NCBI RefSeq assembly: GCF_020781975.1
Contig: NZ_JAJGNI010000002.1
Location: 1-64,000 of the forward strand
Reading direction: 5' to 3'
Source of the DNA: Microbacterium schleiferi
Lineage (GTDB): Bacteria > Actinomycetota > Actinomycetes > Actinomycetales > Microbacteriaceae
Length of the DNA: 64,000 bases
Below are positions 38,280 through 54,494 of the stretch, in pieces. A program made the translations under genes and the position numbers. The first letter of the stretch is position 1. Every line of letters begins with the position of its first letter. The notes below the pieces were generated by a model that saw only the letters and a program-made list of their open reading frames with translations, was not told the origin of the DNA and did not search any database.

Positions 38280-40835
38280 CGCTTCGGCGCGACTGCTCAC
38301 GCCGAGTTTGCGATAGAGCGCACGCAACTGTGACTTGACGGTGTTCGGCGACACGTTGAGGGCTGCGGCGATCTGAGCGACTCCGTCGTGGCGGCCGAGT
38401 TCGAGGGCCACGGCGTGCTCGCGCGCCGTGAGCCGAGGCGCAGCGCCGGGCGACCCGATCATCGCCCAGTCGCGGGCACGCTCGACGCGCTGGGCGAAGT
38501 CGCGCTGGTTCAGCCTGTCAGCGCTCGCGGCGAGCGCGGACAGGGCCGCATCGGGTACGAGCGCAAGCGCGAGCATCTGACCGCTCTCGGCGAGCGCAGC
38601 ATCAGCACGTTCGATCGCGGTGCGGGTGTGTGCGTCATCGTGGCCGAGAACGGCGACGGCAGCGGCGGTAAGGGCGAGGTGCTCGGCCCGCGCCCGAGCG
38701 GATGCCTGCCCGGCTGCGGCACCGTTCAGCAGCCGCAACGCGCGTTCGGCGTCGCCTGCGGCGAGGGCGATTCGGGCGCGGCTGACGGCGGTGCGCGCAT
38801 CTTCGCTGCGGCCGAGGAGACGCTCGGCTCCCGCGAGATCGCCGGCTGCCACGGCTGCCAGCGCACTCGTGTGCCGCAGGCGGCTGCTGGTGAACTGCGA
38901 GACAGCGCGCCTGGCGCGTTGGGCGCTGACGATGCTCCGGATCCGCTCGCGGGCGATGTCGGGCCGGTGGCGACGCAGTTCGATGAGCACGTCGACGTGC
39001 AGGAGCGGTGCCCAGTGCTCGATCGTCTCGCGGTGTTCGTCGAGGGCGTGCAGGTGCGCGTCAGCGGCGTCGAGGTCGCCGTCTTCGAGGGCTATGACGG
39101 CGTGGGCCAACTGCAGATAACTGCCCGGATAGCCCGTCTTCCAGCGCTCGGGCCATTCCCGTTCCTCGGCGCGGCCGGCGACGGCGTGCGCCTGCACGAT
39201 GTCGCCATCCAGCGCGTATGTTCCCGCGAGCAGGGCGAGCCCCTGCAGCCCCGCGCGATACCCGCCGGCGTCGCCGACTGCTACCGACTGGCGGAAGCAG
39301 ACGATCGCCCGGGGAATGTCGCCGCCGTACAGCAGGCTCGTTCCGACCTGGTTCCAGACGCTCGGCTCGTTACGGCCCAGCCGAAGCCGGTCGTCCGGAC
39401 TCAGTTCGCCGAGGGTATCGAAGGCCTCACGAGCAGCCTTCGTTCCGTCACGCCCCGAAACGCGTTGCGCCGCAGACTCGATGGCGCGCAGCAGGACGCG
39501 GTCGGCCGGATCACGGGTCGCTGAACGCTGCCGCGAACCGTACGCGGCGAGCAGGAAGTACTCGATCGCGCGGAGCCGGTGGTCGGGCCGGGCGTTGGCG
39601 ATGATCGCGAGCAACGTCGTCACCAGCGGCAGCCTCCCGAGCACGGTGAGGGGCACTCCCCGAAACAGCTCGGTGACGCGCAAGCCGTACGGCAGGAGCT
39701 CGTTCCAGAAGCGGCGCACGGTGTCGGTCGCGAGGGGCCAGTCGCGATACTCGACAGCGCGGCGCAGCGCCGAGAAGGGCTGTCCGCTCTCGAGCTCCCA
39801 CTGCGCGATCAGGGTGTTCAGCTCCCGAAGCCGCCCCGGCGACAGGTTCCGGCGCGCGGATGCCGACAGCGCCCGCCGCGCGAACGGTGACGGCTCGAAG
39901 ACGGCCGCAGCATCCCGCCGCAGGCCGTGGCTGCCATGTCCACGCCACTGACCCAGCCCCTCCCGCTCGGCACGGTCGAGGAGGACTGCGGCATCGGCCT
40001 CGCCGCTGAGACGGGCAGCGAGCTCGACATCGACGGCATCGGCGAGGCAGATCGCTTCGAGGAAGCCGGTGAACTGCGTGTCCCACGACGGCCGCCGGAT
40101 GCGCAGAAACGAGTCGACGATCTCCGATACGCGAGACGAGTCGATCTCCCGCAGGGTCCGGTCGCCGCCGCGTCCCCCCGCGGCGTTCTCGTCGAATGTC
40201 AGGAGCCGAGCAAGCCCGGGCGCGCCGCCGTGGTCGAGAACGTCCCCCACGATCGGAGTGTCTTCGCTGGTGTGCAGGAGTGCGGCAGTTTCACCCCGGG
40301 TGAGGGCGAGTTCGTCGTCGCGCAGCACGACGACGTCGAGCGCGATCGTGAGGCCGGGCTCGACGAAACCGTTCGCAACGCGAGTGGTGGTACGCACCGA
40401 GAGCGATGGCAGGTCGCCCAGCAGCCGGATAAGCCCGCTGACGGTGTCGGGTTCGAGATACTCGCTCTCATCGATCGCGAGGGCGAGCTCTCCGAGTCGC
40501 GCGAGGCCGCGGCGGAGCGTGTCCCAGGGATCGGCGACGAATTGGAAGGCGGCTGGCCCTGCAGAGAGCGGGTTCCCGGGCTCGAGCAGGCCATAGTCGT
40601 GAAGCGCCAGGGCGAGGTGGCCGGCGAAGACGATCGGCGACCCGCCACCGTCGGCGACGCGGAGCCAGAGACCGCGGCGAGACGTACGCGCGGCCCACTG
40701 AGCCATCGCGACGGTCTTTCCCATGCCTGCCGGCGCGCACAGGACAGCCAGGGCATGGTCTTCCTCGAGAACAGCTTCAAGGCGTGGGCGATCGAGAAGC
40801 GCGCCCGGAAGGCGCGGAACACCGACAAGACCCAT
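38178..40835 (-). CDS. Large LuxR-type (LAL) transcriptional regulator with P-loop
   Basis: 885 residues from the ATG at 40835, with GAGG eight bases upstream. An N-terminal STAND-type ATPase has Walker A APAGMGKT at 34-41 and a LALAIDESEYLEP Walker B-like segment. A long helical, TPR-like middle follows, then a C-terminal LuxR helix-turn-helix: LTAREHAVALELGRHDG, QIAAALNVSPNTVKSQLRAL, YRKLGVSSRAEALRAL. The last 22 or so residues run past the HTH in DNA shared with the MFS gene. MalT-like regulators bind an inducer and ATP; the ligand is unknown. It resembles in its HTH the regulator at 52932. Confidence 0.9.
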   Translation of the reverse strand: MGLVGVPRLPGALLDRPRLEAVLEEDHALAVLCAPAGMGKTVAMAQWAARTSRRGLWLRVADGGGSPIVFAGHLALALHDYGLLEPGNPLSAGPAAFQFVADPWDTLRRGLARLGELALAIDESEYLEPDTVSGLIRLLGDLPSLSVRTTTRVANGFVEPGLTIALDVVVLRDDELALTRGETAALLHTSEDTPIVGDVLDHGGAPGLARLLTFDENAAGGRGGDRTLREIDSSRVSEIVDSFLRIRRPSWDTQFTGFLEAICLADAVDVELAARLSGEADAAVLLDRAEREGLGQWRGHGSHGLRRDAAAVFEPSPFARRALSASARRNLSPGRLRELNTLIAQWELESGQPFSALRRAVEYRDWPLATDTVRRFWNELLPYGLRVTELFRGVPLTVLGRLPLVTTLLAIIANARPDHRLRAIEYFLLAAYGSRQRSATRDPADRVLLRAIESAAQRVSGRDGTKAAREAFDTLGELSPDDRLRLGRNEPSVWNQVGTSLLYGGDIPRAIVCFRQSVAVGDAGGYRAGLQGLALLAGTYALDGDIVQAHAVAGRAEEREWPERWKTGYPGSYLQLAHAVIALEDGDLDAADAHLHALDEHRETIEHWAPLLHVDVLIELRRHRPDIARERIRSIVSAQRARRAVSQFTSSRLRHTSALAAVAAGDLAGAERLLGRSEDARTAVSRARIALAAGDAERALRLLNGAAAGQASARARAEHLALTAAAVAVLGHDDAHTRTAIERADAALAESGQMLALALVPDAALSALAASADRLNQRDFAQRVERARDWAMIGSPGAAPRLTAREHAVALELGRHDGVAQIAAALNVSPNTVKSQLRALYRKLGVSSRAEALRALAAWGLVRPGVAGGLDDGLDDPVARGPQEG

Positions 40836-40902
40836 TGCATCGACCTCGGCGACGCCGCGGAGGAGGGAAGGGCGCGGCGGCGCTTCCTTAGGATACGACG
40901 CG

Positions 40903-41019
40903 TCAGAACAGGGCGAGAGGTCCCGCGACGGCGCCACGCACGAGAGCCCCCACGAGCAGCAGACAGGTGCCAAGGAGGAACAGGCCCGCGAATGTGAGGG
41001 CCAAGCGCAGGTTCGTCAT
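40903..41019 (-). CDS. 38-residue single-helix membrane peptide
   Basis: MTNLRLALTFAGLFLLGTCL followed by LLVGALVRGAVAGPLALF: almost entirely one membrane helix. The ATG is ten bases after AAAGG on the minus strand. It lies 67 bases ahead of the LuxR-type gene on the same strand and divergent from the giant surface protein. The function is unknown, and its small size means it could be chance. Confidence 0.45.
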   Translation of the reverse strand: MTNLRLALTFAGLFLLGTCLLLVGALVRGAVAGPLALF

Positions 41020-41411: not shown

Positions 41412-44400
41412 ATGAACGCCCCTGCTCCCTCAGTATCCGTCGCTCCCGCGAGCCGCCGCGCGTCACGAGAGCGTAGGCGGCGGGCGTGGATGCGGCGAGT
41501 CTCGCTGGCACTTGCGCCAGCAGTGATCGCCAGCACTGTGGGCCTGGGCATCTGGGGCGCGACCACGGCGGCATCGGCCGCTGCCTTGCCCGATCCGTCG
41601 ACCTCGATCGGGCTGGTGCAGACGGGCGGCGCGTACGGGGATGCCGACACCAAGCCATTCATCCTGGCGGGCGAGGATGCCACCTTCGATGTGTCGATCA
41701 CGAACACCTCGACAACGGGCGGATACAACGCGTCGCTTACCGTCCTGCTGCCGAGCGGCATCGATTTCGTCTCGTCGGGCGGGATGGGTAGCCCCGTCGT
41801 ATACCCGAGCGGCGCACAGCTTCCCAACAGCGCGAAGACGCAATCCGGCGACCCGCTGGCGACCGTGCCCGCGGGGATGCAGCTGTGGGTTTTCCAGGAT
41901 GTCGCCGACTTGCCCGGCACGGCGACGTACCCGTCGTCACTGACCGTCCGCCCCGACGCTGACCTCTTCCCGGTCGGTGCCGAGCCCGACATCACCCTCA
42001 CGGGCTACATCTCCGCCGACCCCGCCCTCATCCCGGTCTTCGACGGTTCCACCGGCGTGGGCGGTACCGCGGGCGCTGCCGAGACCTCGGGCGGTGCCAG
42101 CTCGACCGGCATGCCGGTTCACGCGCTGCGGTTGACCAAGCACGAACCGAGCCCCGAGATCGAACTGCTGCGCGGTGTGCACGACCACCAGACCGTCTAC
42201 ACACTGACCGTCGAGAACTCGCCGCAGGGCGACACGAACGGCGTCACCCTCGTCGACTTCCTCCCCGCAGGCCTCGAGTTCCTGGCGTGCGCAAGCGTTG
42301 ACAACACGGCCGACTCGCCGCTGCTCTACGACGCCGGCGGAACCCTTGGCGGGTCGCTGGAGTACCCGACGGCCGGCCCGATCACGGGCGCCTCGCCCGC
42401 TGAATGCCTGGCGCCTGCCAGCGTCGAGACGGTGAACTCCGGTATCCCCGCCGGCCTCGACCCGGGCGTCTACACGAAGGTGACCTGGAACCTCCCCAAC
42501 CTCACCGGCGGCACGGCGCAGGCCACCGACCTCAGCGCCCCGGGTGTGGCTGGCACGTACGTGATCCGCTACGTCGCCGCTGTCCCGCTGTTCGAGAACA
42601 CGATGGACTTCGTCACCGCGGCCGGGAGCGGCACTCCCGATCCGGCCGGGCTCCAGCAGGCATCCAACCTGAACAACAACAACGGCGCCTCGACCCGGCA
42701 GGGACAGGGCGCAGGCTTCGGTGACGGCATCCTGTACGACAATCTCGCGACCGTTGCCGGGACGTACGCCGGACCGCTCGCCCCCTCCGCTTCCGCGTCA
42801 GCGAGCGACACCGACAGCGAGCAGATCCAGGCGATGGACCTGCGGGTGCTCAAGAGCGTTACAACCGGTGCCGGCAGTGAGTTCATCACGGGGGGCTTGG
42901 CGACCTACACGCTGAACATTGCGACGAGCGAGTACACGAGCGCCGGCGACTCGAGCGATCCCGACCCGATCGAGCTCGTGGACACGTTCGCCAACGGACT
43001 GTGCCCTGCCCTCCCCGGTCCCGCAACGGCCAGCATTACGGGCGACCCGCTTCCCGCCGATTGCCTCTATCCGTCGTCGGATGCCGGCGCGACGCTCATC
43101 GGCGCCACCGCGACGGCGATCGACTATGACTCGGCAACCGGCACGTTCGCGGTGACCTACCTGATCGACCCGGCAGCCCTCACCGCGAACGACGAGCACG
43201 TGGTCAGCTACACGGCTCTCATGCGCAGCACGTACGACACGGACGACCCGTGGGTCGGTCCCACGACCTCGGGCGACAGCCTCGACAACACCGTGACGAT
43301 CACGGGATGGACTGACGCGATCCCCGCTCTCACCGGTGTGACCAACGGCAGCGGCGTCCCCGCCGATGGCACAGAGGATGTCTGGGACGACTCCGAAGCG
43401 ACGCTGGATTCGGCCTTCTCTGCCATCTCGAAGCAGGTACTCCCCCGCGATGCTGTCGTCCCGACGCCGGGGGTTGCCCCGACCGCCGCAACCTCGTGCG
43501 ACGTGGCCCCGGGCGCCCCGTGGGCGCAGAACCAGACGGATGCCGCAGACCCCGCCTTCCACGCCGGAGATGTCGTCTGCTACGAGTTGACTGTCGACTT
43601 CGCGAACGAGATTGACGTGCGAAACCCGCTGGTCACGGACTTCCTTCCCGCGGGCGTCTCGTACCTGGATTCGGCAATCTACAGCGGAGCCGGCGGAACG
43701 ACCGCCGGTGTCACGGTCGACAGCTTCTCGCAGAGCGGTCAGCGACTGGACTGGCAGGTCGGCACGGTGGGTGCCGGAGGCGACCGCTACGTGCCCCTGA
43801 ACTCGACGCTCGTGCTCCACGTTCTGGGTCTCGTGACCTCGAACACCCCGTCCGACAGCTCGGCGCTCGACAAGCCGCAGAACCTCATGAAGTACCAGCA
43901 GGAGAACGTGCTGGGCGACCTGTTCTTCTTGCGTGACGCGTCCGAGATCCAGCTCGGGCAGGGCCCGACCCTCCTCAAGGGTGTCCGCGACGTGGACGGC
44001 GACGCCACCCTGCCCGCGCAAAGCCAGAACAACGCAGACGGCACCGTGTTCGATTCGAACCGCGACGGCATCCAGGTTGCTGCCAGTGACGTCGTCACCT
44101 ACCGCGTGGATCTCTCCGGTGGCGATTTCGACGCCGATCTGACGGTCTGGGATGCCCTGCCCAGTGGCATCGATAAGGGCGATGTCTCAGCGATCAGCAA
44201 CGGTGGCGTCGCGCTCGATCCGGGCGACCTGGGCTATCCGGCGAACCTCGAGTCGGCATACAGCGGTCACTCGGTCATCGTCTGGACGGGCATCGCGGTG
44301 GCTGCGGCGCCGGGAACGGCGACCCTCACGTACGACGTCACGGTTCCCGCCGACGCGCGCGTGAATGTCGACTACGACAACACGGCCTCGATCACGCAGT

Positions 44401-47400
44401 ACGACGTCACACTGAACACCGGGGACACCCAGACTCTCTACCCCACCGATTCCTTGGATGACACGACCCGGCCGGTCGACGAGACCGTACCGGGCGCGAA
44501 CACCCGCGACGACTCGTCGGTGTTCACCCCCGACCCGACAGTCGATAAGGAACTGATCTCGACCGAGGTCGGTCCGAACACAGGCATCGGCGAGCAGAAT
44601 CTCGACCCGAACAACGGCTCGAACCAGGCTGTGCAGGGTGAGCTCATCACCTTCGAGTACTCGGTTTCGGTCCCCGCTCACACGTCGGTGACGAACGCCG
44701 TTCTGCGCGATCGCGGCACCCTGCTGCGCGGCGGCACGACAGTGCCGTACACGGTGCACGGCACCCCGTCCTGGACGGCCTCTGCACTGACGGGAGCAGC
44801 GGCAGGAGACTTCTCGCTCTCCCCGGCCGGTGAGCTCACCTTCCCCACTTCGTACGCGAACACCTCGGATGTCGATCAGCTGTTCACCGTGACGCTGACG
44901 CTGTACGTGGGTGACGCGGGCAACACCAACGCCACGTTGAACAACCGCGCACTGTTCACGAGCGACACCTGGAATGGGCAGCACGACGCCTCGGTCGTCT
45001 ACATCGAGCCGAACCCGCAGATCACGAAGTCGGCGTCTCCGGCATCCGATCTCACGACCAGCGACACGATCACGTACACGCTGAGCGTTGCGAACACCTC
45101 GAACCGCCCGATCTCGTACGACAACGTGATCGTCGACACGGTGCCGGCCGGCCTCATTGTCGACATCGGTTCGGCATCCGTGACCCCAGCCGCCTTCGAC
45201 ACCGGCGTCACCACCGGAGCCGGCGGCACCATCACCTGGAACGTCGCCGAGATCCCGCCGACGGCGTCGATCACCTACGAGGCGAGCATCGATCCTTCCA
45301 CCGGTGGCGGCGAGAGCTACACGAACACCGCCACCGAGACCGGTTACACCCTCCCGGCGAGCCTCGGTGGGGATGTCACAAGCCGTCGCGGCACCCGCAC
45401 CTCGAACGACGACGCGACGGTCACCGCTGTGACCGCCGAGATCGCCAAGGGTGTGCGCACCGCCGGCACGACCGACGCCTTCGCTGGCAGCGTGTCCGAG
45501 CCGCTCGGCGAAACCGTCGAGTATCAGGTTGAGGTGACGCTGAAAGCCAACATCAACTACTACGACCCGGTGATCTCCGACGACCTTCCGGCCGGCGTCG
45601 TCCTGCAGGACGCGACCATCACCGGCCCGACCGCGAGCCCGTCCACCGGCGTCACCGGAACCTGGGACTACGCGCTGGATGCCGGTACGAACACCGCCAC
45701 CTGGACCTACGACGACGGTGCCGGCAACGACATCCTGTCCGAGCCGGTCGACCGCGTGCTGACCCTCACCTACGAGGTTCTCCTGGACGGCAGTGCGGTG
45801 CCCGCGAACATCAGCGATCTGCCGAACACTGCAGTGTTCGGCTGGAACACCGCCAACGGCGACCCCTCGACCCGCACCTCGATCGATGACGACGCGAATG
45901 TCGACGTGCTGGACCCGCTGCTCGGGATCGCCAAGACGGTCTCTGACGCCACCCCGAACCCGGGAGAGAGCTTCGACTACACCGTCACGGTGACCAACAC
46001 CGGCGCGACTCCCGCGTACAACATGGTCGTGAGCGACGTCGTCCCCGCAGGCGTCCTCGTCGACCCCGCCACGATCACCGGCGGTGGCACGCTCACGGGT
46101 GCCGACCCGGCGCTCGGTGGTGGCACCGTCACGTGGGATGAGACCGACCTGCCGGGCCCGCTCAGCAACACCGCCCCCGGCAACACCGTGCAGTTCACGT
46201 ACTCGGCGACGCTGACCGCGAGCGCCAACCTGCACGACGGTGACGCATTCACCAACACCGCATCCGTCGACCACTACGAGTCGTTCCCGACAGATGGCCG
46301 GGACTACGACCCGACGGATGTCGACGACTCCGCGACAGTTGACCCGGCGTTGCCGGACGTGGCGCTGACCAAGGCGGTCACTGCGGGTGATCTCGCTTAC
46401 GCGAACACGCCGTTCAGCTGGACCATCACCGCCACAAACAACGGGGATGGCCCCGCCCAGACGGTGGAGCTTATCGACACCCTGCCGGTGAACTGGGAGT
46501 TCCAGGCCATCACGAGCGTGACTGTGGCGGGCACCCCGGTCTCGCCTCCCCCGACGACGACGGTCACCGGCAGCGGCGACCCAGGCGACCTGCAGCAGCT
46601 CGCCTGGTCGTTCGGCGCCGACGCCCCAGCCTCCCCGGTCCTGCAACCCGGCCAGTCGATCGTGATCGTCTTCACGGCGATCCCGCGTACCGCCGCTCTC
46701 ACCGACGCGGGCGTCACGCAGGCCGGCCCTCCGGTCGTCCGTCCGCCGCACACGAACACCGTTGCGGGCACGACGACCGACACCTCCGGTGCGACCGAGG
46801 ACGCCGACGGTGAGTACACCGGTCCGGATGCCGAAGCAGACGCGTTCATCCACGCGGCAGACCTCCAGCTGCAGAAGGATGCTGGCGTGGGTCTCGTCGC
46901 GGGCGGCGCCGCCGGCACGGCCTGGACGATCACGGTGACCAACAACGGTCCCGATGAGGCTGTCGGACCCTTCACCGTCAGCGATACGTGGGGCGATGCC
47001 GGTGTGCTGCCGGCGGGCTTCAGCGTGACCGGTGTCTCGGGCACCGGCTGGGACTGCGCGCTAGTGTCGACGACCGGGTTCGATTGCTCGCGCACGAACA
47101 GCGCCGACACTCTCGCCTCCGGCGCGAGCTTCCCGGTGATCACGGTCACGGCGCAGGCGGCGGCATCCTTCGATGTTGCCGACTCCCCCGTCGACAACAC
47201 GGCGAACGTGACGGGCGCAACCCACGACCCCGACCCGTCGAACAACACTGACGATGCCGAGGTTCCTGTCACTGCCGAGGCCGATCTCGTGATCGACAAG
47301 ACAGCCTCGAACCCCGTGAACGCGGGAGGCTCTGTGACCTGGACTCTCACCGTCACGAACGACGGGCCGTCCGACTCGGTCTCGACGACGGCGAACCCGA

Positions 47401-50267
47401 TCACGGTGAGCGACACGATCCCCACGGGAATGCTGAACACGATGCTCGGCACTCTCCCCGCCGGCTGGACCGCGTCGGCCCCGGGGCCGTTCGCCGCGGG
47501 CGATACGGTGACACTCACCCTCGCCGACGGGGAACGGCTGACCGCGGGCCAGGTGACCGCGTTCACCCTCACCGGCACGATCGACCCGTCGTGGCCCGCA
47601 GGTACCGATATCTCGAACAGCGGCACTGTGACCCCCGGTGAGACGACCGACCCGGACCCGTCGAACAACACCGACACCGACACAGTGACGCCCGGTATCG
47701 ACACGACGCTCGGAATCAACAAGACCCGGGTCGTCTTCGACGGCTCGGACTGGGTGCCGGCGACCGCGACGAACCCGGTAGTGCCGGGAGACCCGGTGAC
47801 CTACCTCGTCGAGGTGGCCAACACCGGCACGGCGGACGCTCGTTCGGTGACGGTCGATGACGAGGTGGCTGATTACTTCAGCTACCAGTCGTTCGAGTCA
47901 GTGACCGGTACCTGGACACGTACGTCCTCGACCTCGGCGCCAGGCGATGACCAGAGCTTCGCCCTCACAGGTGACCTGGCAGCCGGCGACTCGGCGTCGT
48001 TCCGCGTGGCCCTGCTGCTGGATGCAGCGGTCGAGTCCGGCGCGACGGTCGAGAACACGGTCATCGCGCACGCCGACAACGCGACAAACGACCCGGACGA
48101 CACCGATTCCACCTCCGACTCGGAGCGTTCGGCTGATCTCTCGATCGAGAAGACGCATACCGGCACGGTGCACGCGGGCGACCCGCTGGAGTACACGGTC
48201 ACGGTGACCAACAACGGCCCATCGGCTTCGTCGGGCCCGATCGAGATCACCGACACCCTGCCGTCTGGCTTCGGTTATCAGACCGGCAGCGCGACGGTCA
48301 GCGTCGCCGGCGGCACGGCGACGGCGACCGAGCCTGTCGTGGCGGGTCAGACCCTCACCTGGACGGTGGGAGACTCCTCCTCGAGCCTCGCGAACGGCGC
48401 CACGATCGTGATCGTCTTCTCGGCGACGACGGATTCTGACCTCACCGCCGGCTCGTACATCAACGAGGCTGACGTCGATGGCCCCGACGATGACAACCCG
48501 AGCAACAACCATGCCGAGGACCCGACGAGCCTCGACACGCTCACGAACCTCGTGATCACCAAGACACCGGATACCGGGCCCTACATCGCCGGCACGGACG
48601 TGGGCTACACGCTCACCATCGAGAACGAGGGTCCGTCGGTGGCGCGCGATGTCGTGGTTACCGACGCCACCCCGGTGGGAATGACCGTCACGGCGATGTC
48701 GGGCAGCGGCTGGACATGCGATGTCACGGCGGCTCCGGCGGCCTGCGAGATCGCCGACCTGCCCGTGGGTACGACCACGATTTCGGTGACGGCGGCACTG
48801 TCGGCATCCGTTTTGACGGGAACCGACCTGACCAACACCGCGACCGTGGCGACCTCGACACCAGAGACGAGCACGTCCGACAACTCCGACGACGCGACGA
48901 TCACGGTCGAGACCCTCGCGGATCTCGGCATCGTGAAGACCGCTGTCGACGAAGCTGGTGACCCCGTCACCACCGCGATTGCGGGCGACGAGGCGCGGTA
49001 CCTCCTCGAGGTGCACAACTACGGACCCTCGAACGCGATCGCCCCGGTGACAATCGTCGACACGCTACCCGAGGGCATCACCTTCGTCGGCCTGGTCGAC
49101 GCGGCCGACTGGTCAGCTGTGGCCGATCCGGTGGATCCGGTCAGCGGCACCCAGACCGTGGCGCTCACCCGCGTGCCCTCGGGCGCGGGTCTTGCGGCGG
49201 GGGCTGACGCCCCGCAGGTGACGCTCATCGTGCAGCTCGACCCGTCGATCGCGGTCGACCCGGTCACCGGCACCACGGTGCTGACCAACAGCGCCACGGT
49301 GAGCTCGGGCACCCCCGAACCCGCACCGGACCCGCACGAAAACACCGACACTGCCGATCTGGAGGTCAGCCAGGCGGTGAACCTGTCGATCGTGAAGACC
49401 CACGATGCGGGAGATGTGCGCATCGGCGATGACCTCCCGTTCGATCTCTCGGTTCGCAACGATGGGCCGTCGACCGCGACCGGTGTGACGGTTGTCGACA
49501 CGATCCCCGCCGGTCTCGAATACGTGGATGCCGCGGGAAGCGACCCCGCGTGGACCGTGGTGGCGGACCCCGTGGCGCCCGACGGGACAACGACGGTGAC
49601 CGCAACGCTCTCCGGTGACCTGGCGCCCGCGACCGACGCCCCGACGCTCTCGCTCACGGTGACCGTTACCGCGGCCGCCTACGACCAGGTCGTCAACGTC
49701 GGTGTCGTCTCGGCCGACCAGCCCGAGACTGACCCCTCCGACAACAGCAGCGATGACACCGTCACGGTGCCGCCGCAGTCGACGCTGGTTGTGACCAAGA
49801 CTGCCCTGGGCGCTTTGCAGGTCGGCTCGAAGGGCACCTATGTGATCGCGGTCACGAACGAGGGGCCTACCGAGGACCCGGGCCCGATCGTGGTGACAGA
49901 CGTGCTGCCTCGAGGCCTGAGCTTCGTGTCGGCGTCCGGCACCGGCACGACATGCGACGCGTCCGGCCAGACGGTGACGTGCACGCTCGACGGGCCGCTG
50001 GGAGTGGGGCAGACGGCATCGATGACGCTCGTGGTGGCCGTCGCTAACGGTGCCTACCCCGAGGTGACGAACACCGTTACGGTCACCACCCCGACCGAGC
50101 AGCTGCCGGGCTCGACGCTCACCGCGTCGACCACGAACCCGGTGGCAGCTGATCCGCTGGCCGGTACGGGAGGAACGCTTCCCGGGTGGCTAGTGATGGC
50201 GGCGCTTCTGCTCCTGATCGCGGGCGGTGGGTTCTTCGCTGCGTCACGTCGACGGGCCGATTCGTGA
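41412..50267 (+). CDS. Giant DUF11-repeat cell-surface protein with sortase signal
   Basis: 2951 residues from the ATG at 41412. The Arg-rich N-region and a hydrophobic helix (RRVSLALAPAVIASTVGLG) ending near AASAAALPD form a long signal peptide. After a unique first domain there are about 17 beta-sandwich modules of DUF11/isopeptide-type, each starting near (L/V)xKT or IxK, with VTNxGPS and VxDTLPxG strands; the later ones (from about residue 1850) are the most regular. Lys, Asn and Asp/Glu residues suit internal isopeptide bonds. The end LAGTG (2916-2920), a helix and RRRADS is a class-E (LAXTG) sorting signal. Likely a stalk-like adhesin or S-layer-like protein anchored to peptidoglycan. 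Confidence 0.93.
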   Translation: MNAPAPSVSVAPASRRASRERRRRAWMRRVSLALAPAVIASTVGLGIWGATTAASAAALPDPSTSIGLVQTGGAYGDADTKPFILAGEDATFDVSITNTSTTGGYNASLTVLLPSGIDFVSSGGMGSPVVYPSGAQLPNSAKTQSGDPLATVPAGMQLWVFQDVADLPGTATYPSSLTVRPDADLFPVGAEPDITLTGYISADPALIPVFDGSTGVGGTAGAAETSGGASSTGMPVHALRLTKHEPSPEIELLRGVHDHQTVYTLTVENSPQGDTNGVTLVDFLPAGLEFLACASVDNTADSPLLYDAGGTLGGSLEYPTAGPITGASPAECLAPASVETVNSGIPAGLDPGVYTKVTWNLPNLTGGTAQATDLSAPGVAGTYVIRYVAAVPLFENTMDFVTAAGSGTPDPAGLQQASNLNNNNGASTRQGQGAGFGDGILYDNLATVAGTYAGPLAPSASASASDTDSEQIQAMDLRVLKSVTTGAGSEFITGGLATYTLNIATSEYTSAGDSSDPDPIELVDTFANGLCPALPGPATASITGDPLPADCLYPSSDAGATLIGATATAIDYDSATGTFAVTYLIDPAALTANDEHVVSYTALMRSTYDTDDPWVGPTTSGDSLDNTVTITGWTDAIPALTGVTNGSGVPADGTEDVWDDSEATLDSAFSAISKQVLPRDAVVPTPGVAPTAATSCDVAPGAPWAQNQTDAADPAFHAGDVVCYELTVDFANEIDVRNPLVTDFLPAGVSYLDSAIYSGAGGTTAGVTVDSFSQSGQRLDWQVGTVGAGGDRYVPLNSTLVLHVLGLVTSNTPSDSSALDKPQNLMKYQQENVLGDLFFLRDASEIQLGQGPTLLKGVRDVDGDATLPAQSQNNADGTVFDSNRDGIQVAASDVVTYRVDLSGGDFDADLTVWDALPSGIDKGDVSAISNGGVALDPGDLGYPANLESAYSGHSVIVWTGIAVAAAPGTATLTYDVTVPADARVNVDYDNTASITQYDVTLNTGDTQTLYPTDSLDDTTRPVDETVPGANTRDDSSVFTPDPTVDKELISTEVGPNTGIGEQNLDPNNGSNQAVQGELITFEYSVSVPAHTSVTNAVLRDRGTLLRGGTTVPYTVHGTPSWTASALTGAAAGDFSLSPAGELTFPTSYANTSDVDQLFTVTLTLYVGDAGNTNATLNNRALFTSDTWNGQHDASVVYIEPNPQITKSASPASDLTTSDTITYTLSVANTSNRPISYDNVIVDTVPAGLIVDIGSASVTPAAFDTGVTTGAGGTITWNVAEIPPTASITYEASIDPSTGGGESYTNTATETGYTLPASLGGDVTSRRGTRTSNDDATVTAVTAEIAKGVRTAGTTDAFAGSVSEPLGETVEYQVEVTLKANINYYDPVISDDLPAGVVLQDATITGPTASPSTGVTGTWDYALDAGTNTATWTYDDGAGNDILSEPVDRVLTLTYEVLLDGSAVPANISDLPNTAVFGWNTANGDPSTRTSIDDDANVDVLDPLLGIAKTVSDATPNPGESFDYTVTVTNTGATPAYNMVVSDVVPAGVLVDPATITGGGTLTGADPALGGGTVTWDETDLPGPLSNTAPGNTVQFTYSATLTASANLHDGDAFTNTASVDHYESFPTDGRDYDPTDVDDSATVDPALPDVALTKAVTAGDLAYANTPFSWTITATNNGDGPAQTVELIDTLPVNWEFQAITSVTVAGTPVSPPPTTTVTGSGDPGDLQQLAWSFGADAPASPVLQPGQSIVIVFTAIPRTAALTDAGVTQAGPPVVRPPHTNTVAGTTTDTSGATEDADGEYTGPDAEADAFIHAADLQLQKDAGVGLVAGGAAGTAWTITVTNNGPDEAVGPFTVSDTWGDAGVLPAGFSVTGVSGTGWDCALVSTTGFDCSRTNSADTLASGASFPVITVTAQAAASFDVADSPVDNTANVTGATHDPDPSNNTDDAEVPVTAEADLVIDKTASNPVNAGGSVTWTLTVTNDGPSDSVSTTANPITVSDTIPTGMLNTMLGTLPAGWTASAPGPFAAGDTVTLTLADGERLTAGQVTAFTLTGTIDPSWPAGTDISNSGTVTPGETTDPDPSNNTDTDTVTPGIDTTLGINKTRVVFDGSDWVPATATNPVVPGDPVTYLVEVANTGTADARSVTVDDEVADYFSYQSFESVTGTWTRTSSTSAPGDDQSFALTGDLAAGDSASFRVALLLDAAVESGATVENTVIAHADNATNDPDDTDSTSDSERSADLSIEKTHTGTVHAGDPLEYTVTVTNNGPSASSGPIEITDTLPSGFGYQTGSATVSVAGGTATATEPVVAGQTLTWTVGDSSSSLANGATIVIVFSATTDSDLTAGSYINEADVDGPDDDNPSNNHAEDPTSLDTLTNLVITKTPDTGPYIAGTDVGYTLTIENEGPSVARDVVVTDATPVGMTVTAMSGSGWTCDVTAAPAACEIADLPVGTTTISVTAALSASVLTGTDLTNTATVATSTPETSTSDNSDDATITVETLADLGIVKTAVDEAGDPVTTAIAGDEARYLLEVHNYGPSNAIAPVTIVDTLPEGITFVGLVDAADWSAVADPVDPVSGTQTVALTRVPSGAGLAAGADAPQVTLIVQLDPSIAVDPVTGTTVLTNSATVSSGTPEPAPDPHENTDTADLEVSQAVNLSIVKTHDAGDVRIGDDLPFDLSVRNDGPSTATGVTVVDTIPAGLEYVDAAGSDPAWTVVADPVAPDGTTTVTATLSGDLAPATDAPTLSLTVTVTAAAYDQVVNVGVVSADQPETDPSDNSSDDTVTVPPQSTLVVTKTALGALQVGSKGTYVIAVTNEGPTEDPGPIVVTDVLPRGLSFVSASGTGTTCDASGQTVTCTLDGPLGVGQTASMTLVVAVANGAYPEVTNTVTVTTPTEQLPGSTLTASTTNPVAADPLAGTGGTLPGWLVMAALLLLIAGGGFFAASRRRADS

Positions 50268-50308: not shown

Positions 50309-50824
50309 GTGAGCACGCCTACAGCCCATGACCATAGCCCTCCCCCGCCCGACCTGTCGGGCTCGGGAGGGCGTTGGTCGATCCGTTTCGAGGCGCGCCG
50401 CTGGCGTCATCTGGTCATCCCGTCGCGAGCTGGCCTGCCACGGCTGCGTGAGGCAACACTGCGCGGGCCGTGGCTTGAGCTCGCTGACCGGTCCCGCGTG
50501 TGGCAGTGGTGCCGGTGCGCGGTGGAGGTCACCTGCGCGTCTCCGCGGCGAGCAGCCTGGACCAGGTCACTGCCGGCCAGGATGCTGCTCGTCTCCCCCC
50601 GCGGGACGGACTCTGTATCAGCACCGGCCGCGGATGCCGCAGCGGCGAGCAGCGTGGTCTTCGACTGCGCGGGACTCTCGCGAGCGGATTTCGATCAGCT
50701 GAGCCGTCACGTTCGCCTTTTCACAGCTACCGCATGGTTGCGCGATGGGGCTCTGGAGCCGAATCTTGAGACTGGCCGTATCTGGGAGCGGCTGTCACCG
50801 GTGTCCACTCGAAAGGTGAGCTGA
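50309..50824 (+). CDS. Conserved-type hypothetical protein preceding the sigma factor
   Basis: 171 residues from GTG. No family is recognised. A Pro/Ser-rich start is followed by a Trp/Arg-rich core (RWSIRFEARRWRHLVIP, LRGPWLELADRSRVWQWCRC) and an alpha/beta-looking second half (SRADFDQLSRHVRLFTATAWL). No signal peptide or membrane helix. The stop is two bases before the sigma factor start, so the pair is translationally linked, and it may be a regulator or partner of it. Coding bias is good but not strong. Confidence 0.6.
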   Translation: MSTPTAHDHSPPPPDLSGSGGRWSIRFEARRWRHLVIPSRAGLPRLREATLRGPWLELADRSRVWQWCRCAVEVTCASPRRAAWTRSLPARMLLVSPRGTDSVSAPAADAAAASSVVFDCAGLSRADFDQLSRHVRLFTATAWLRDGALEPNLETGRIWERLSPVSTRKVS

Positions 50825-50826
50825 CC

Positions 50827-52686
50827 GTGCCCCGCACAGGTCTGGCGGCCCTGAGTGACGACGACCTCGTCGCGCTCTCGCGCCGCAACACGACTGCCGC
50901 GTACGCGGAACTGTGGCTGCGTCACAGTGCTGCGGCGCTGGCTGTCGCGCGCGCTTTCACGACGCTGGATGCCGATGATGTCGTCTCCGAGGCCTTCACC
51001 CGGGTCTTCGCGCGCATCAAAGACGGCGGGGGCCCGACGATGGGTTTCCGTCCCTACCTCTTGACTGCCGTGAAGAACGTTGCGCGCGAGTGGGGGTCCC
51101 GTGCCGCCGAGACGACGAGCACGGATGTCGCGGGCCTGCCGGCCTCGACCGACACGGCCGAGTCTGTCGAGGCAGCCCTGGAGGCGGGCGTCACAGTCTC
51201 TGCCTTCCGTTCTCTTCCCACCCGCTGGCAGGAGGCCCTCTGGTACAGCGATGTCGAGGGGTTGAAGCCGCGCCAGTTCGCTCCGCTGCTGGGTCTTGCC
51301 GCCAACGCGGCGTCGGCGCTCGTCATCCGTGCCCGACGCGGTTTTCGGGATGCCTGGGTCAGCGCCCAGCTGCTGGCAGCCGACAACGACGAGTGCCGCG
51401 GAGTGCTGTCGATGCTCGGCGCTCACACGCGCGGGGCCCTGAGCGCCCGAGATGCCCGCGCCGCTGAGGCCCACATCGCGACGTGCGCGAAGTGTGCGCT
51501 GGCCTGGAACGAGGCTCAGCAGGTATCGACCAGGCTCGCGCTCGCGCTGCTGCCGGTTGTGGTGGGGGTTCCCGCGACCGCCGCCTACGCGGCGTGGCTG
51601 CAGTCCAGTGCTGCGGCAGGGGCTGCCACTGTCGCTGCCGCCGCGTCGACGACCGGGGTCAAGCCGCCGCGGTCCCGACTTTCGCGCTCGGCCCAGGTGG
51701 GGGTGGTGGCAGCCGCGGCGGTTGCCGCTGTGGCTCTCGGTGCCGGAGTGTGGGCAGCGGTCGGCACGATTTCCGGCGGTCTGGTCGAGGCGAATCCCCC
51801 GGCCGCGCAGCCCGCCTCCCCGAGCGACGCCGAGACTGTCGTGGATCCCGAGAACGACGCGCCTGCGCCGGTCCCGCTTCCCGATACGGAGAGGCCCGAT
51901 GCGGGAGCGCCCGCGCCCCGGCCCGATCGCATGCCCGCGCCAGCCGGCCCCGTTGACCCCGACCCGGAAGAGCCGGCACCCGCTCCGACCCTGAGTCCCA
52001 CGCCCAACCCGACCCCGACGCCAACACCGACCTCTACGCCCACGCCCACACCCACGTCGAGTCCGAGTCCGAGTCCGACTCCCACGCCAACACCCACAGT
52101 GCCGCCCCTGCCTGCGCCGCAGGTCGTGGTGGATGCGAGCGCCGGAACGCAGGTGTACCCCGAGCTGTCGGGAACTGACGCCGAGCCGGGCGCAACGGTC
52201 GAGGTCCTCGATGAGACCGACGTCGTCAGAGCGACGACGGTCGCCGACGATGCGGGAGCGTGGAACGTGACCGATCTGTCCGGGGGCGCATGCACGACTG
52301 ATGCATCCGCATACCTTCCTCCGGGCGATCACACTCTCACTGCCCGGCAGTCGATCGATGGACGCACCTCTCCCCTGTCGACCGGTGTCGCGGTCTCGGT
52401 GGCCTCTCCGCCCGCGTTCGTCTCGCCGAGCGAGGGAGAGGTCGTCTCCCGCTCCGGGTTCATCCTGTCGATCACGGGTGAGCCGGCGGCATCCGTGCAG
52501 CGCATAAAGCTGCCCGACCCCTCGCCCTGCCGCCCAACGCCGATGGTGCTGGATGCCTCAGGCTCCTTCTCGCAGCAGTTCACGCTCTCCGCGTCAGACA
52601 CCACGGTCACGATCGGCATCCGTTATATCGATCCGGGCACCGGTCGTCACGGTGTCGCATCGTTCGTCACCTTCACCGCCGGGTAG
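50827..52686 (+). CDS. ECF-type sigma factor fused to a membrane anchor and extracytoplasmic domain
   Basis: 619 residues; ECF sigma factors are usually about 190. Region 2 is at about 10-90 (ALSRRNTTAAYAELWLRH, DADDVVSEAFTRVFARI, FRPYLLTAVKNVARE) and region 4 at about 125-185 (FRSLPTRWQEALWYSDVEGL, LLGLAANAASALVIRARRGF). A zinc-finger-like HxxxCxxC (His216, Cys220, Cys223; HIATCAKC) follows, as in ZAS anti-sigma proteins. Hydrophobic segments lie near 240-276 and 288-315. A Pro/Thr/Ser linker (about 330-430) leads to Ig-like domains (435-619). Thus sigma, anti-sigma-like motif and outer sensor are in one chain. GTG start with AAAGGTGAG. Confidence 0.88.
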   Translation: MPRTGLAALSDDDLVALSRRNTTAAYAELWLRHSAAALAVARAFTTLDADDVVSEAFTRVFARIKDGGGPTMGFRPYLLTAVKNVAREWGSRAAETTSTDVAGLPASTDTAESVEAALEAGVTVSAFRSLPTRWQEALWYSDVEGLKPRQFAPLLGLAANAASALVIRARRGFRDAWVSAQLLAADNDECRGVLSMLGAHTRGALSARDARAAEAHIATCAKCALAWNEAQQVSTRLALALLPVVVGVPATAAYAAWLQSSAAAGAATVAAAASTTGVKPPRSRLSRSAQVGVVAAAAVAAVALGAGVWAAVGTISGGLVEANPPAAQPASPSDAETVVDPENDAPAPVPLPDTERPDAGAPAPRPDRMPAPAGPVDPDPEEPAPAPTLSPTPNPTPTPTPTSTPTPTPTSSPSPSPTPTPTPTVPPLPAPQVVVDASAGTQVYPELSGTDAEPGATVEVLDETDVVRATTVADDAGAWNVTDLSGGACTTDASAYLPPGDHTLTARQSIDGRTSPLSTGVAVSVASPPAFVSPSEGEVVSRSGFILSITGEPAASVQRIKLPDPSPCRPTPMVLDASGSFSQQFTLSASDTTVTIGIRYIDPGTGRHGVASFVTFTAG

Positions 52687-52931: not shown

Positions 52932-54494
52932 ATGTTCATGCCGACACCACAGCCGGATGCCACGCCATCCACCTCTGCCGAGGTGCTGTCGACACTGATC
53001 GAGCAGGTGGACGCCGCGTGGCAGCGCGACGACGCAGCTACCGCGATCCGGCTGCTGAACGCCGGCCTCTGGCCGCTGTTCCTCGACCGACCGGCCGAGT
53101 TGCGACGCCTGCTTGCCCCGGTGCCCGAGGATGCCGCACCCCCGGCCCTTCTCCTCGCCAAGCGGTTCGCGCTGCCCGTGCTCGACAGCCCCGAGCGCAT
53201 TCGACTGCTGGCTACCCGCCCGATGGATGCAGCGCCCGGGTCGAACTTGGACGCACCGACCGATCAGGGCTGGCGTATCGCGCAACGGATGATCGCGCAC
53301 CGACTGCGCGGCGAGTTCGACGAGGCCCGGGATGTCGCGCAGAGACTGCGCCAGCACATCGAGACGGAGTCGGCACACGAACCCGCGCAGCTTCCGCAGT
53401 TCCTCGCCGCCGCCTACTCTCAGCTCGGCACGACGGAGCTGCTCGCCGGTGACACCGCCGCAGCGCTCGCCGACTATCGCGCGGCGCTCGCGGCTACCGA
53501 CGGGGATGCCGAGCTCGGCATCCGTCGCGACGCGCTGATCAAACAGGCGTGCGTCCTCGCGATGGAGGGCAGGCTGCGGGATGCCGAAGCGACGCTGGCA
53601 CGTGCCGAGACCGAGCGTCATCCGAACAACGCCTACGCCGACCGCATCCGGGCGCGCACCCGGCTGGCGCGGGCGCTGATCGCCGTCGAGCGGATGGACG
53701 AATCGGCTCCGCAGGTGCTGGCGAGCCTTGACCGCGACCTCCTTTTCGAGTTCTGGCCGCTCGTCGTGCTGGCCGAGGGCCGGTGGCGTCTCGCGACCGG
53801 CAACCCCGCGAGCGTCATGGATCTCGTCGACGCCGAGACCGAGAACCGCCAGCTGCCGGCGGGCTCGCTCGGGCTGTGCGTTGCGACGTTCCTGCGCGAG
53901 AAGGCCGGCGAGATGCTCGGGATGCCACCGACGATGCCGCTTCGCGACCCGGAGTCCCTCCCGCCGCTGTGTGCCCTCGGCGCCGTGCGCGCGCTCATCA
54001 CGCGTGCCGATCCGCTGGTAGCCGTGCACGCTGCCCGGTCGCTCGCGCAACGGCGCGGGGTCGGGCCGTCGGTGCGCCTCGAGGCGCTGTTGCTGACCTC
54101 TCTCGCGCTCCAGCGGGCGGGCCTGCCGGCAGAGGAACGAATCTCCGGTGCGGCGGCGGCGCTTGCCCGCGATGAGGGGCTGTGGCGCCCGTTCGCCGTG
54201 GTGCCGGCCGCCGTGCGCGACGAGATTCCGATCGACCTGCCCGCGCACCTCGAGCACGCGGCCGTCGCAGCCCCACCGCCCGCCGTCATCCTGACGCCGC
54301 GCGAGCGGGAGGTGTTGGTGGCGCTGGCGAGCCCGGACTCGCTCGCGCAGATCGCGGCGCGACTGCACGTGTCGGTCAACACGATCAAATCGCAGGTGCG
54401 CTCGCTCTACCGACGCATGGGCGTCTCCTCGCGCCACGAGGCGATCGCCGAGGCGACCCGTCTCGGTCTGGTCTCACTTCCCCCGACGCCCTAG
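52932..54494 (+). CDS. LuxR-type transcriptional regulator without P-loop
   Basis: 520 residues from ATG, GGAAGGA six bases upstream. The N-terminal 440 residues form helical, TPR-like repeats (ADYRAALAATDGDAELG, IKQACVLAMEGRLRDAEATLARA) with no Walker A. The C-terminal HTH (about 452-515) reads LTPREREVLVALASPD, QIAARLHVSVNTIKSQV, RSLYRRMGVSSRHEAIAEA. It is close in HTH sequence to the LAL regulator at 38178-40835, and looks like a shortened relative lacking the ATPase. The last four bases overlap the convergent CPBP gene. Confidence 0.9.
   Translation: MFMPTPQPDATPSTSAEVLSTLIEQVDAAWQRDDAATAIRLLNAGLWPLFLDRPAELRRLLAPVPEDAAPPALLLAKRFALPVLDSPERIRLLATRPMDAAPGSNLDAPTDQGWRIAQRMIAHRLRGEFDEARDVAQRLRQHIETESAHEPAQLPQFLAAAYSQLGTTELLAGDTAAALADYRAALAATDGDAELGIRRDALIKQACVLAMEGRLRDAEATLARAETERHPNNAYADRIRARTRLARALIAVERMDESAPQVLASLDRDLLFEFWPLVVLAEGRWRLATGNPASVMDLVDAETENRQLPAGSLGLCVATFLREKAGEMLGMPPTMPLRDPESLPPLCALGAVRALITRADPLVAVHAARSLAQRRGVGPSVRLEALLLTSLALQRAGLPAEERISGAAAALARDEGLWRPFAVVPAAVRDEIPIDLPAHLEHAAVAAPPPAVILTPREREVLVALASPDSLAQIAARLHVSVNTIKSQVRSLYRRMGVSSRHEAIAEATRLGLVSLPPTP

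Follow-up and report, generated by a model that had tools for sequence, protein, structure and literature searches.

In the cellulosome clostridia, the SigI/RsgI systems use outer modules that resemble secreted proteins to sense a substrate and to control the activity of a sigma factor. Among the extracytoplasmic function (ECF) sigma factors, the sensor and the sigma factor can be found in a single chain. ECF52, of which SCO4117 of Streptomyces coelicolor is the first characterised member, joins an ECF core, a zinc finger (pfam13490), a membrane helix, a proline-rich extension and an outer domain (PMC5826349, PMC8999054). It has been proposed that ECF52 proteins are switched by their carbohydrate-binding module, and in the parts of the source used here the signal of SCO4117 is proposed, not shown (PMC5826349). 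ECF53 and ECF48 have C-terminal zinc anti-sigma and membrane extensions, and for some ECF52 and ECF53 proteins glycosyl hydrolase or carbohydrate-binding domains have been predicted (PMC8999054, PMC10766802). In IutY (ECF243) of Pseudomonas putida, sigma and anti-sigma also share one polypeptide, and stepwise proteolysis by Prc and RseP frees the sigma factor (PMC8999054). Here we analyze a 619-residue protein of this general kind, encoded in a stretch of 64,000 nt (the window) of the 3.0 Mb genome of Microbacterium schleiferi (contig NZ_JAJGNI010000002.1, positions 1 to 64,000). Its outer end is predicted to consist of tandem adhesin-like immunoglobulin (Ig) domains, and its gene lies behind that of a giant, sortase-anchored surface protein.

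We propose that this is a one-piece transmembrane signaller of the ECF52 kind, which takes its signal from a surface fibre or adhesin of the cell itself and which proteolysis sets free, a proposal to which we give roughly an even chance. That it is a single-chain sigma/anti-sigma membrane protein is well supported.

The single-chain protein

The open reading frame (ORF) runs from a GTG start at 50827 to 52686 on the forward strand. Its parts, with the evidence for each, are:

50827..52686, +, whole protein of 619 residues: single-chain sigma, zinc anti-sigma, membrane, wall-spanning and Ig-like parts (profile, model and composition evidence)
50854..51375, +, ECF sigma core, regions 2 and 4, residues 10-183 (TIGR02937 over stretch 25-171; family profile; model superposition)
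51376..51534, +, zinc anti-sigma (ZAS-like) domain, residues 184-236, presumed ligands C190, H216, C220 and C223 (zf-HC2)
51535..51591, +, conserved hydrophobic stretch LLPxxxG, residues 237-255, probably non-spanning (conservation, hydropathy)
51697..51753, +, probable membrane helix, inside to outside, residues 291-309 (hydropathy 2.17, flanking charges)
51760..52122, +, Pro/Thr-rich linker, presumably wall-spanning, residues 312-432 (composition)
52123..52683, +, predicted tandem Ig-like ectodomain, residues 433-619 (AlphaFold2, sequence profile, structural alignment)

Taken alone, the sequence falls short of the sigma models. TIGR02937, the ECF superfamily model of NCBIfam, gives 41.8 bits, just below its cut-off of 42.9, and the Pfam models Sigma70_r2 and Sigma70_r4_2 give 19.2 and 13.4 bits (cut-offs 24 and 25.7). 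We accept the homology despite these scores because a profile of family members finds E. coli sigma-E (1or7) as its top match in the PDB, with an E-value of 9e-18. That profile was built from 54 sequences, the window protein and 53 of 96 candidates, with L112 and L114 removed by hand because they are without membrane and outer parts. It matches 28 PDB sequences, of which 27 are named as sigma factors; the other, 3hug_B, which we take to be the anti-sigma factor RslA, is reached through the zinc part (profile stretch 198-235, E 0.0013). An earlier annotation of the window made from its letters alone (the sequence-only reading) had called an ECF core, and it had taken sigma scores below the ECF thresholds as the sign that the call was wrong. 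The single sequence does score below them; the family profile overrules this, and the call stands.

Other evidence points the same way. The relatives L088, L089 and L101 score above the region-2 cut-off. Of 51 alignment columns with a conservation of 85% or more among the 53 relatives, the window protein keeps 45 (88%; the relatives have a median of 96% and a lowest value of 78%). Region 2 of the predicted model superposes on 4lup over 90 columns, with a TMt of 0.89 and a root-mean-square deviation of 1.5. The predicted model of the sigma and zinc parts together is confident over regions 2 and 4 and has a predicted template modelling score (pTM) of 0.56, so we make no claim as to how the zinc domain sits against the sigma regions.

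The zinc domain is recognized by zf-HC2 with 29.2 bits (cut-off 22.2), which bears out the anti-sigma-like HxxxCxxC motif noticed in the sequence-only reading. H216, C220 and C223 are present in all 54 aligned members, as they must be given that HxxxCxxC is an entry condition. Position 190, which is no entry condition, is Cys in 50 of the 54 and His in the other 4.

One or two membrane segments had been suggested. There are indeed two hydrophobic stretches, at residues 237-255 and 291-309; the second looks spanning and the first probably is not. The first reads LLPVVVG in the window protein, and its P243 and G247 are kept in 53 and 51 of the 54 aligned members. Across 94 of the 101 family genes (7 are left out as too short), the second stretch is more hydrophobic than the first in 85, and the first has a mean hydropathy of 1.79, with 22 members below 1.6. 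Around the helix at 291-309, the window protein has 4 Lys or Arg in the preceding 15 residues and 0 in the following 15. The means for the 94 members around the second stretch, again for 15 residues on each side, are 0.82 before and 0.30 after for Lys plus Arg, and 0.28 before and 1.52 after for Asp plus Glu. In addition, two relatives (L101 and L192, below) end in a C-terminal sorting signal, which needs the part that precedes it to be outside, and this supports the same topology. Together, these sequence features argue for residues after the helix lying outside the cell.

The linker that follows has 121 residues (312-432), of which 40 are Pro and 17 Thr; a Pro/Thr linker of about 100 residues had been estimated. 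The last part of the protein is an Ig-like domain, and neither LPXTG nor an anchor helix nor a basic tail follows it.

The outer domain

As anticipated from the letters, the C-terminal part models as Ig-like domains. An AlphaFold2 model of residues 430-619, built with an alignment of 17 ectodomains (17 of the 27 rows with an ectodomain match), has a mean predicted local distance difference test (pLDDT) score of 91.1 and a pTM of 0.82, and shows two domains that are nearly all beta. Pfam Big_6 matches below its cut-off. A profile of the 17 ectodomains matches the repeats of adhesins: the ice-binding adhesin 4p99 (E 1.2e-5), Bap 6m3a (E 5e-5), and also Bap 7c7u, Lap 6xi3 and SdrD 10ps. By structural alignment the top match is the Bap C region (7dm0_A, Z 9.0), tied with many Ig folds, among them animal ones, Siglec-10 and glycoside-hydrolase domains. 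The Foldseek TM-scores of the two-domain ectodomain, taken by query, are low, at 0.24-0.38 in the 50 rows shown. Since the structural matches are tied across so many Ig folds, they establish an Ig-like fold, and the kinship with adhesins rests on sequence, at which level we regard the ectodomain as adhesin-related. We thus predict, from the model, tandem adhesin-like Ig domains. No Pfam carbohydrate-binding family, NPCBM included, matches the window ectodomain at E-values up to 1.

Other family members have other outer domains above the Pfam cut-offs: NPCBM in L221, a concanavalin-like domain in L118, Big_9/cadherin-like domains in L093, and DUF11 in L088 and L052. The outer end is therefore modular. 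It can also be long, about 920 to 1340 residues in L087, L088, L089, L090 and L095; DUF11, above the cut-off in L088, is below it in L089. Very large outer parts are also seen in L052 and L055 (ORFs of 1344 and 978 residues), where the family genes have neighbours that, from the look of their sequences, we take to be dnaK, grpE, dnaJ and hspR.

The family and its relation to ECF52

By family we mean the 101 genes that encode HxxxCxxC and score at least 150 bits with our local sigma and zinc profile. The frame-split copies L100, L115 and L116 are not in this list. All loci other than the window are stretches of about 20 kb or less, and 36 of the 101 genes are within 8 kb of a stretch end. A search of the window genome and 37 relatives gave matches in 30 of the 38, some of them to the Pro/Thr linker only. 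Further relatives come from the best 80 matches of a scan of named genomes, which include Microbacterium, Compostimonas, Subtercola, Rathayibacter, Cellulomonas, Isoptericola, Nocardioides, Lentzea, Arthrobacter and Streptomyces, among other genera. The tree is a quick search without bootstrap, has long branches, and carries approximate likelihood-ratio (SH-aLRT) supports; in it, the window protein, L031 and L032 form one clade with a support of 99. Rows from genomes of the window's genus are interspersed with rows of named Microbacterium, which agrees with a probable origin of the window in that genus. One sigma gene labelled as from Planococcus sp. APC 4015 (L071, Bacillota) falls inside a Microbacterium clade, and is probably due to contamination of the record.

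How close is the window protein to ECF52? Sigma regions 2 and 4, the zinc finger, the membrane helix and the proline-rich extension are all there, and the C-terminal zinc anti-sigma part with a membrane extension is likewise a feature of ECF53 and ECF48. As a stand-in for SCO4117, we use a Streptomyces ORF of the same architecture (L219/L221), which has sigma region 2 and NPCBM above the Pfam cut-offs, and sigma region 4 and zf-HC2 below them. This ORF scores 220.7 bits with the family profile of the sigma and zinc parts (as L219_0), is up to 49% identical to a family member over 218 columns, and sits inside the family tree, away from the window clade. It points to a common ancestry of the sigma and zinc parts, and the placement near ECF52/ECF53 suggested earlier appears right. 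There are also differences. ECF52 has NPCBM (smart00776) where the window protein has the predicted adhesin-like Ig domains, the window gene stands behind a sortase-anchored giant protein, and the ECF52-like row is elsewhere in the tree. Without NPCBM, we file the window protein as ECF52-like, not as ECF52. Judged by sequence, it appears to share its stock and its working mode with the ECF52-type proteins. The single-chain architecture is already published, for SCO4117, so the 'new sub-type' of the sequence-only reading does not hold for the architecture; it does for the ectodomain and for the surface-protein context.

Surface genes around the family

We called surface genes with the regular expression L[APS]x[TS]G followed by a helix and a basic tail. 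It misses variants, such as the second surface protein of L031; a looser first expression was replaced because it seemed to flag membrane proteins too. Around the 101 family genes, LPXTG-type ORFs concentrate at short distances: from the closest bin outwards (less than 500 bp, then 0.5-1.5, 1.5-3, 3-5, 5-7 and 7-9 kb) there are 11, 5, 2, 7, 3 and 0 of them, in 97, 193, 285, 372, 355 and 306 kb of sequence, respectively. Comparing the closest bin with the 5-9 kb range (3 in 661 kb) gives a binomial p of 4e-8, uncorrected for orthologous loci. Altogether, for 24 of the 101 genes an LPXTG-type or sortase gene lies no more than 5 kb away, or the gene itself encodes a sorting signal. On the tree, surface linkage requires at least 8 changes on well-supported branches.

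As an example, L031 has on one strand a DUF11/DUF7927 LAVTG protein, a pilin (GramPos_pilinD1), a sortase, a DUF11/SpaA surface protein and the sigma gene, with an HTH_18 regulator gene about 450 bases past it. L032 has the first five genes of L031 by similarity (Pfam was run on L031 only), and then a gene on the opposite strand. In L047 the order is a DUF7507/DUF7933 surface protein, a pilin, a sortase, a 170-residue protein and two sigma genes, and in L059 a thioester/TQ adhesin is directly upstream of the sigma gene. The window sigma gene belongs to the clade of L031 and L032, and it too has a surface-protein gene upstream on the same strand. Among genes from relatives of Arthrobacter alkaliphilus (L192-L211), 11 of 20 carry the surface label. 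In five of these loci (L196, L197, L198, L200 and L210), of which all but L210 belong to one clade, an LAxTG gene follows downstream on the same strand after 25-193 bp, counted between stop-to-stop ORFs.

Pilin and sortase genes, as in SpaA-type pili, are present in the L031, L032, L047, L101 and L192 loci. The pilins of L031, L047 and L101 are identified by Pfam; those of L032 and L192 are recognized from a sorting signal, from similarity or from motifs. The window locus differs in having neither pilin nor sortase, so there is no pilus operon there.

Bare sigma copies, without zinc domain or membrane helix, occur at L048:13022-13627 (-) and L061:9453-10013 (+). In each case the gene of an LPXTG-type protein, of 488 and 2106 residues respectively, comes next downstream.

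A sigma factor fused to a pilin

In two members the outer part is itself a complete pilin:

L101:9944-12535, sigma-pilin fusion of Arthrobacter alkaliphilus, 864 residues, which has a pilin motif, an E-box and an LPXTG signal and stands first among pilus genes
L192:9732-12374 (stop to stop), sigma-pilin fusion of genome G055, which has a pilin motif, an E-box and an LPXTG signal and stands first among pilus genes

The A. alkaliphilus protein has, all above the Pfam cut-offs, Sigma70_r2 (40.5 bits), zf-HC2 (25.2), GramPos_pilinD1 (93.5), SpaA (75.6), GramPos_pilinBB (32.6) and Gram_pos_anchor (20.6). It contains WLYDVNVYPKN, YWLVETKAPDGY and LPTTG, which we take to be the pilin motif, the E-box and the sorting signal, respectively. 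Downstream are a DUF7927/SpaA surface protein of 1090 residues, a free pilin and a sortase. Because the free pilin is 80% identical to the fused one, we considered an assembly error. We reject it, as the entire fusion is also present in a second genome (G055), with 78% identity across residues 1-861 of 864; there it is on a contig of 4.56 Mb, again with a free pilin and a sortase downstream. In a third, G065, the sigma gene is without pilin and 68% identical to the fusion over its residues 8-407, and a free pilin with a sortase is found beside a different single-chain sigma gene on the opposite strand. The fusion thus looks like one outer domain replaced by a pilin. It occurs in 2 of the 59 genomes searched around L101 (its own included), and in none of the 23 plasmid records with a match, at a cover of at least 80%. 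The window protein, without pilin domains or a C-terminal sorting signal, is not of this type.

A. alkaliphilus and relatives have a conserved block, TGTCACACT-N3-TTGCTATGG, which in L101 shares bases with the putative start codon of the fusion; perhaps it is a promoter from which a leaderless transcript starts. Allowing 3 mismatches or fewer, we find it in 4 places in 131 loci plus the window (L101, L192, and L194 twice), none of them in the window, and 0 times in single-base shuffles.

The window locus

Two other ORFs precede the sigma gene in the window:

41412..50267, +, giant surface protein of 2951 residues, with DUF11-type repeats, isopeptide-forming fimbrial domains and a C-terminal LAGTG sorting signal (NCBIfam/Pfam)
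50309..50824, +, ORF of 171 residues, a doubtful partner, with its stop two bases before the sigma start and no family match

The giant protein expected beside the sigma gene is thus there. It has 13 stretches of TIGR01451 (DUF11-type), 6 of TIGR04226 (isopeptide-forming fimbrial) and 11 of PF01345. Its anchor scores 34.4 bits with the LAVTG-type model NF058582 (cut-off 27), and 14.1 with the general LPXTG model (cut-off 15.9). It is one of 2 LAVTG-type anchors found in the genome at E-values up to 0.01, and of the 6 Sigma70_r2 genes of the genome, only the one for the 619-residue protein shares their contig. Measured stop to stop, the giant gene is 505 bp upstream of the sigma ORF on the same strand. 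We propose the giant DUF11 protein as the surface partner of the sigma factor.

The 171-residue ORF had been put forward as a partner coupled to the sigma gene by two bases. The coordinates are right, as its stop is two bases before the GTG at 50827. As a conserved partner we reject it: there is no Pfam or NCBIfam match; among 37 other genomes there is no credible relative, the sole match being a stretch of 65 residues with three stop codons; and in L031 and L032 the interval that separates the sigma gene from its upstream neighbour has no called gene in the corresponding position. Its codon score is -32 in frame and -56 to -83 in the other five frames, a low coding signal though the best of the six, and it may be a real orphan gene. 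From the gaps of 41 bases (giant gene to 171-residue ORF) and two bases (that ORF to the sigma gene), we read the three genes as possibly one co-transcribed operon.

The genome has one sortase, on another contig (C2), and one homologue of the M50 site-2 proteases, both found at E-values up to 0.001. The locus is flanked on both sides by regulators of one similarity cluster, at 38178-40973 (-) and 52932-54494 (+). The protein at 52932 has a GerE/LuxR domain above the cut-off and TPR below it, and a third member of the cluster (L048:6766-8325) is near the L048 sigma gene.

A proposed mechanism

In the resting state, the zinc domain would hold the sigma regions inactive at the membrane, by analogy with the models for ECF52 and IutY. 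IutY, with sigma and anti-sigma in one polypeptide, is our mechanistic model for the window protein; SigI/RsgI is more distant, being two proteins with another type of anti-sigma and a polysaccharide substrate. The outer Ig domains would read the state of the sortase-anchored surface layer, most likely the giant DUF11 protein encoded upstream. A change outside would lead to a cut outside and then to one inside the membrane, for which the M50 homologue is a candidate. The freed sigma part would then drive transcription, most likely including the genes for the giant protein and for the sigma factor itself. We infer, with less support than for proteolytic release, that what is sensed is a surface protein or fibre of the cell itself, and that the regulon includes the giant-protein genes. 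In A. alkaliphilus and one relative the sensor would itself be a pilin with a sortase signal, and therefore the sigma factor may there be covalently tied to the pilus or the wall.

A bolder reading extends this to a class. Actinobacteria would have sigma factors physically wired to their own surface fibres, the L101 and L192 proteins forming a covalent chain from fibre to transcription factor and the window protein being an unfused form, so that assembly, length or pulling would be transmitted to transcription. We put this forward tentatively, and would not be surprised to see it fail.

Weighing the alternatives

Several observations weigh against our proposal of a fibre-reading signaller. The window locus has no pilin and, by our local profile, no sortase match in its 64 kb; the window protein has no sorting signal, and its branch is longer than most. 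Inspecting by eye the sequence ahead of 41412 and 50309, where the sequence-only reading had suggested a search for an autoregulated site, we found no shared promoter. Family-wide, 77 of the 101 genes have no LPXTG-type or sortase gene within 5 kb (31 of the 77 are within 8 kb of a locus end), and of 52 LAVTG-type anchors in 14 genomes only 5 are, by eye, within 10 kb of a listed family gene. L082 and L083 have the same ectodomain as the window protein and no surface neighbour was found for them. The largest clade, 25 rows that are mostly Microbacterium, has no surface gene. It includes 14 loci of the window's genus (L033-L046) in which the sigma gene has a fixed place: on one side, as annotated in L034, are a GH20 hexosaminidase and an amidohydrolase, and on the other, in 13 of the 14, two genes (DUF2568 and FAD-oxidase in L034), L040 stopping at the contig end. 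This fixed context suggests that the older signal may be related to amino sugars or to the wall, and amino-sugar or wall recycling is a possible signal for these loci.

Could the protein then be an ordinary ECF52-type sensor of wall glycan or of an environmental sugar, with Ig domains that carry or bind carbohydrate and a giant neighbour that is a target or a coincidence? The GH20 and amidohydrolase genes of the commonest same-genus locus fit such a sensor, as do the NPCBM of the Streptomyces member, the concanavalin-like domain of a Leifsonia member, the glycoside-hydrolase domains and Siglec-10 among the structural matches tied at the top Z, and the carbohydrate-binding switch proposed in print for ECF52 in the parts of that account used here (PMC5826349). 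However, the window ectodomain matches none of the Pfam carbohydrate-binding families at E-values up to 1, its sequence profile goes to adhesin repeats, its clade accompanies pilus genes, and in two relatives a pilin occupies its place. We find a sugar sensor rather unlikely, if a real contender. That the neighbourhood is incidental, and that the sigma and surface genes have no functional link, seems to us improbable. The 77 genes without a surface neighbour, the roughly 5 in 52 anchors near a family gene and the patchy surface label on the tree are what one would then expect, but LPXTG-type genes number 11 per 100 kb in the first 500 bp and 0-0.8 per 100 kb at 5-9 kb, five loci of A. alkaliphilus relatives, four of them close kin, keep a same-strand spacing of 25-193 bp, two genomes have the pilin fused in frame, and in the window genome only one of six Sigma70_r2 genes is on the contig of the LAVTG-type anchors.

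The remaining two alternatives concern the protein itself. Its sigma part might be decaying and no longer work, the protein surviving as an anchored surface protein, to which the region 2 and 4 scores below the Pfam cut-offs, the long end branch and the 88% of conserved columns kept (median 96%, lowest 78%) would all conform. Against this, the frame is open without stops, the zinc ligands are kept and regions 2 and 4 are modelled with confidence, and we regard decay as very unlikely. It is hardly credible that both hydrophobic stretches span the membrane, in which case the linker and Ig domains would be in the cytoplasm and the protein would be no surface sensor. By its hydropathy (mean 1.79) the first stretch could be a helix in most members, and Lys plus Arg is higher before the second stretch than after it in 32 of the 94 members, the same in 51 and lower in 11, so the positive charges alone give a modest signal. 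However, in 85 of the 94 it is the second stretch that scores higher, Asp plus Glu rises from 0.28 before it to 1.52 after it, Pro/Thr linkers and adhesin domains are usually found outside the cell, and the sortase signal of the pilin fusions would fall on the wrong side.

Meaning

In the titles and opening lines of abstracts in the literature searched, and in parts of four papers (PMC5826349, PMC8999054, PMC10766802 and PMC8103513), there is no sigma factor fused to a pilin or to a sorting signal. Nor do those titles and abstract openings contain an account of single-chain sigma genes linked to pilus or adhesin loci. It is thus likely, though not certain, that the surface-gene context of single-chain sigma factors is new.

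The fusions and the gene neighbourhoods suggest that such sigma switches read the state of surface fibres. To our knowledge, how Gram-positive bacteria sense that a fibre has been built, is attached or is under load is largely unknown. If our proposal is true, a sigma factor that carries outside the cell a pilin with a sortase signal would connect the fibre with gene expression directly and in a testable way, within one polypeptide, and it would hint at the purpose of the outer domains in ECF52-like proteins.

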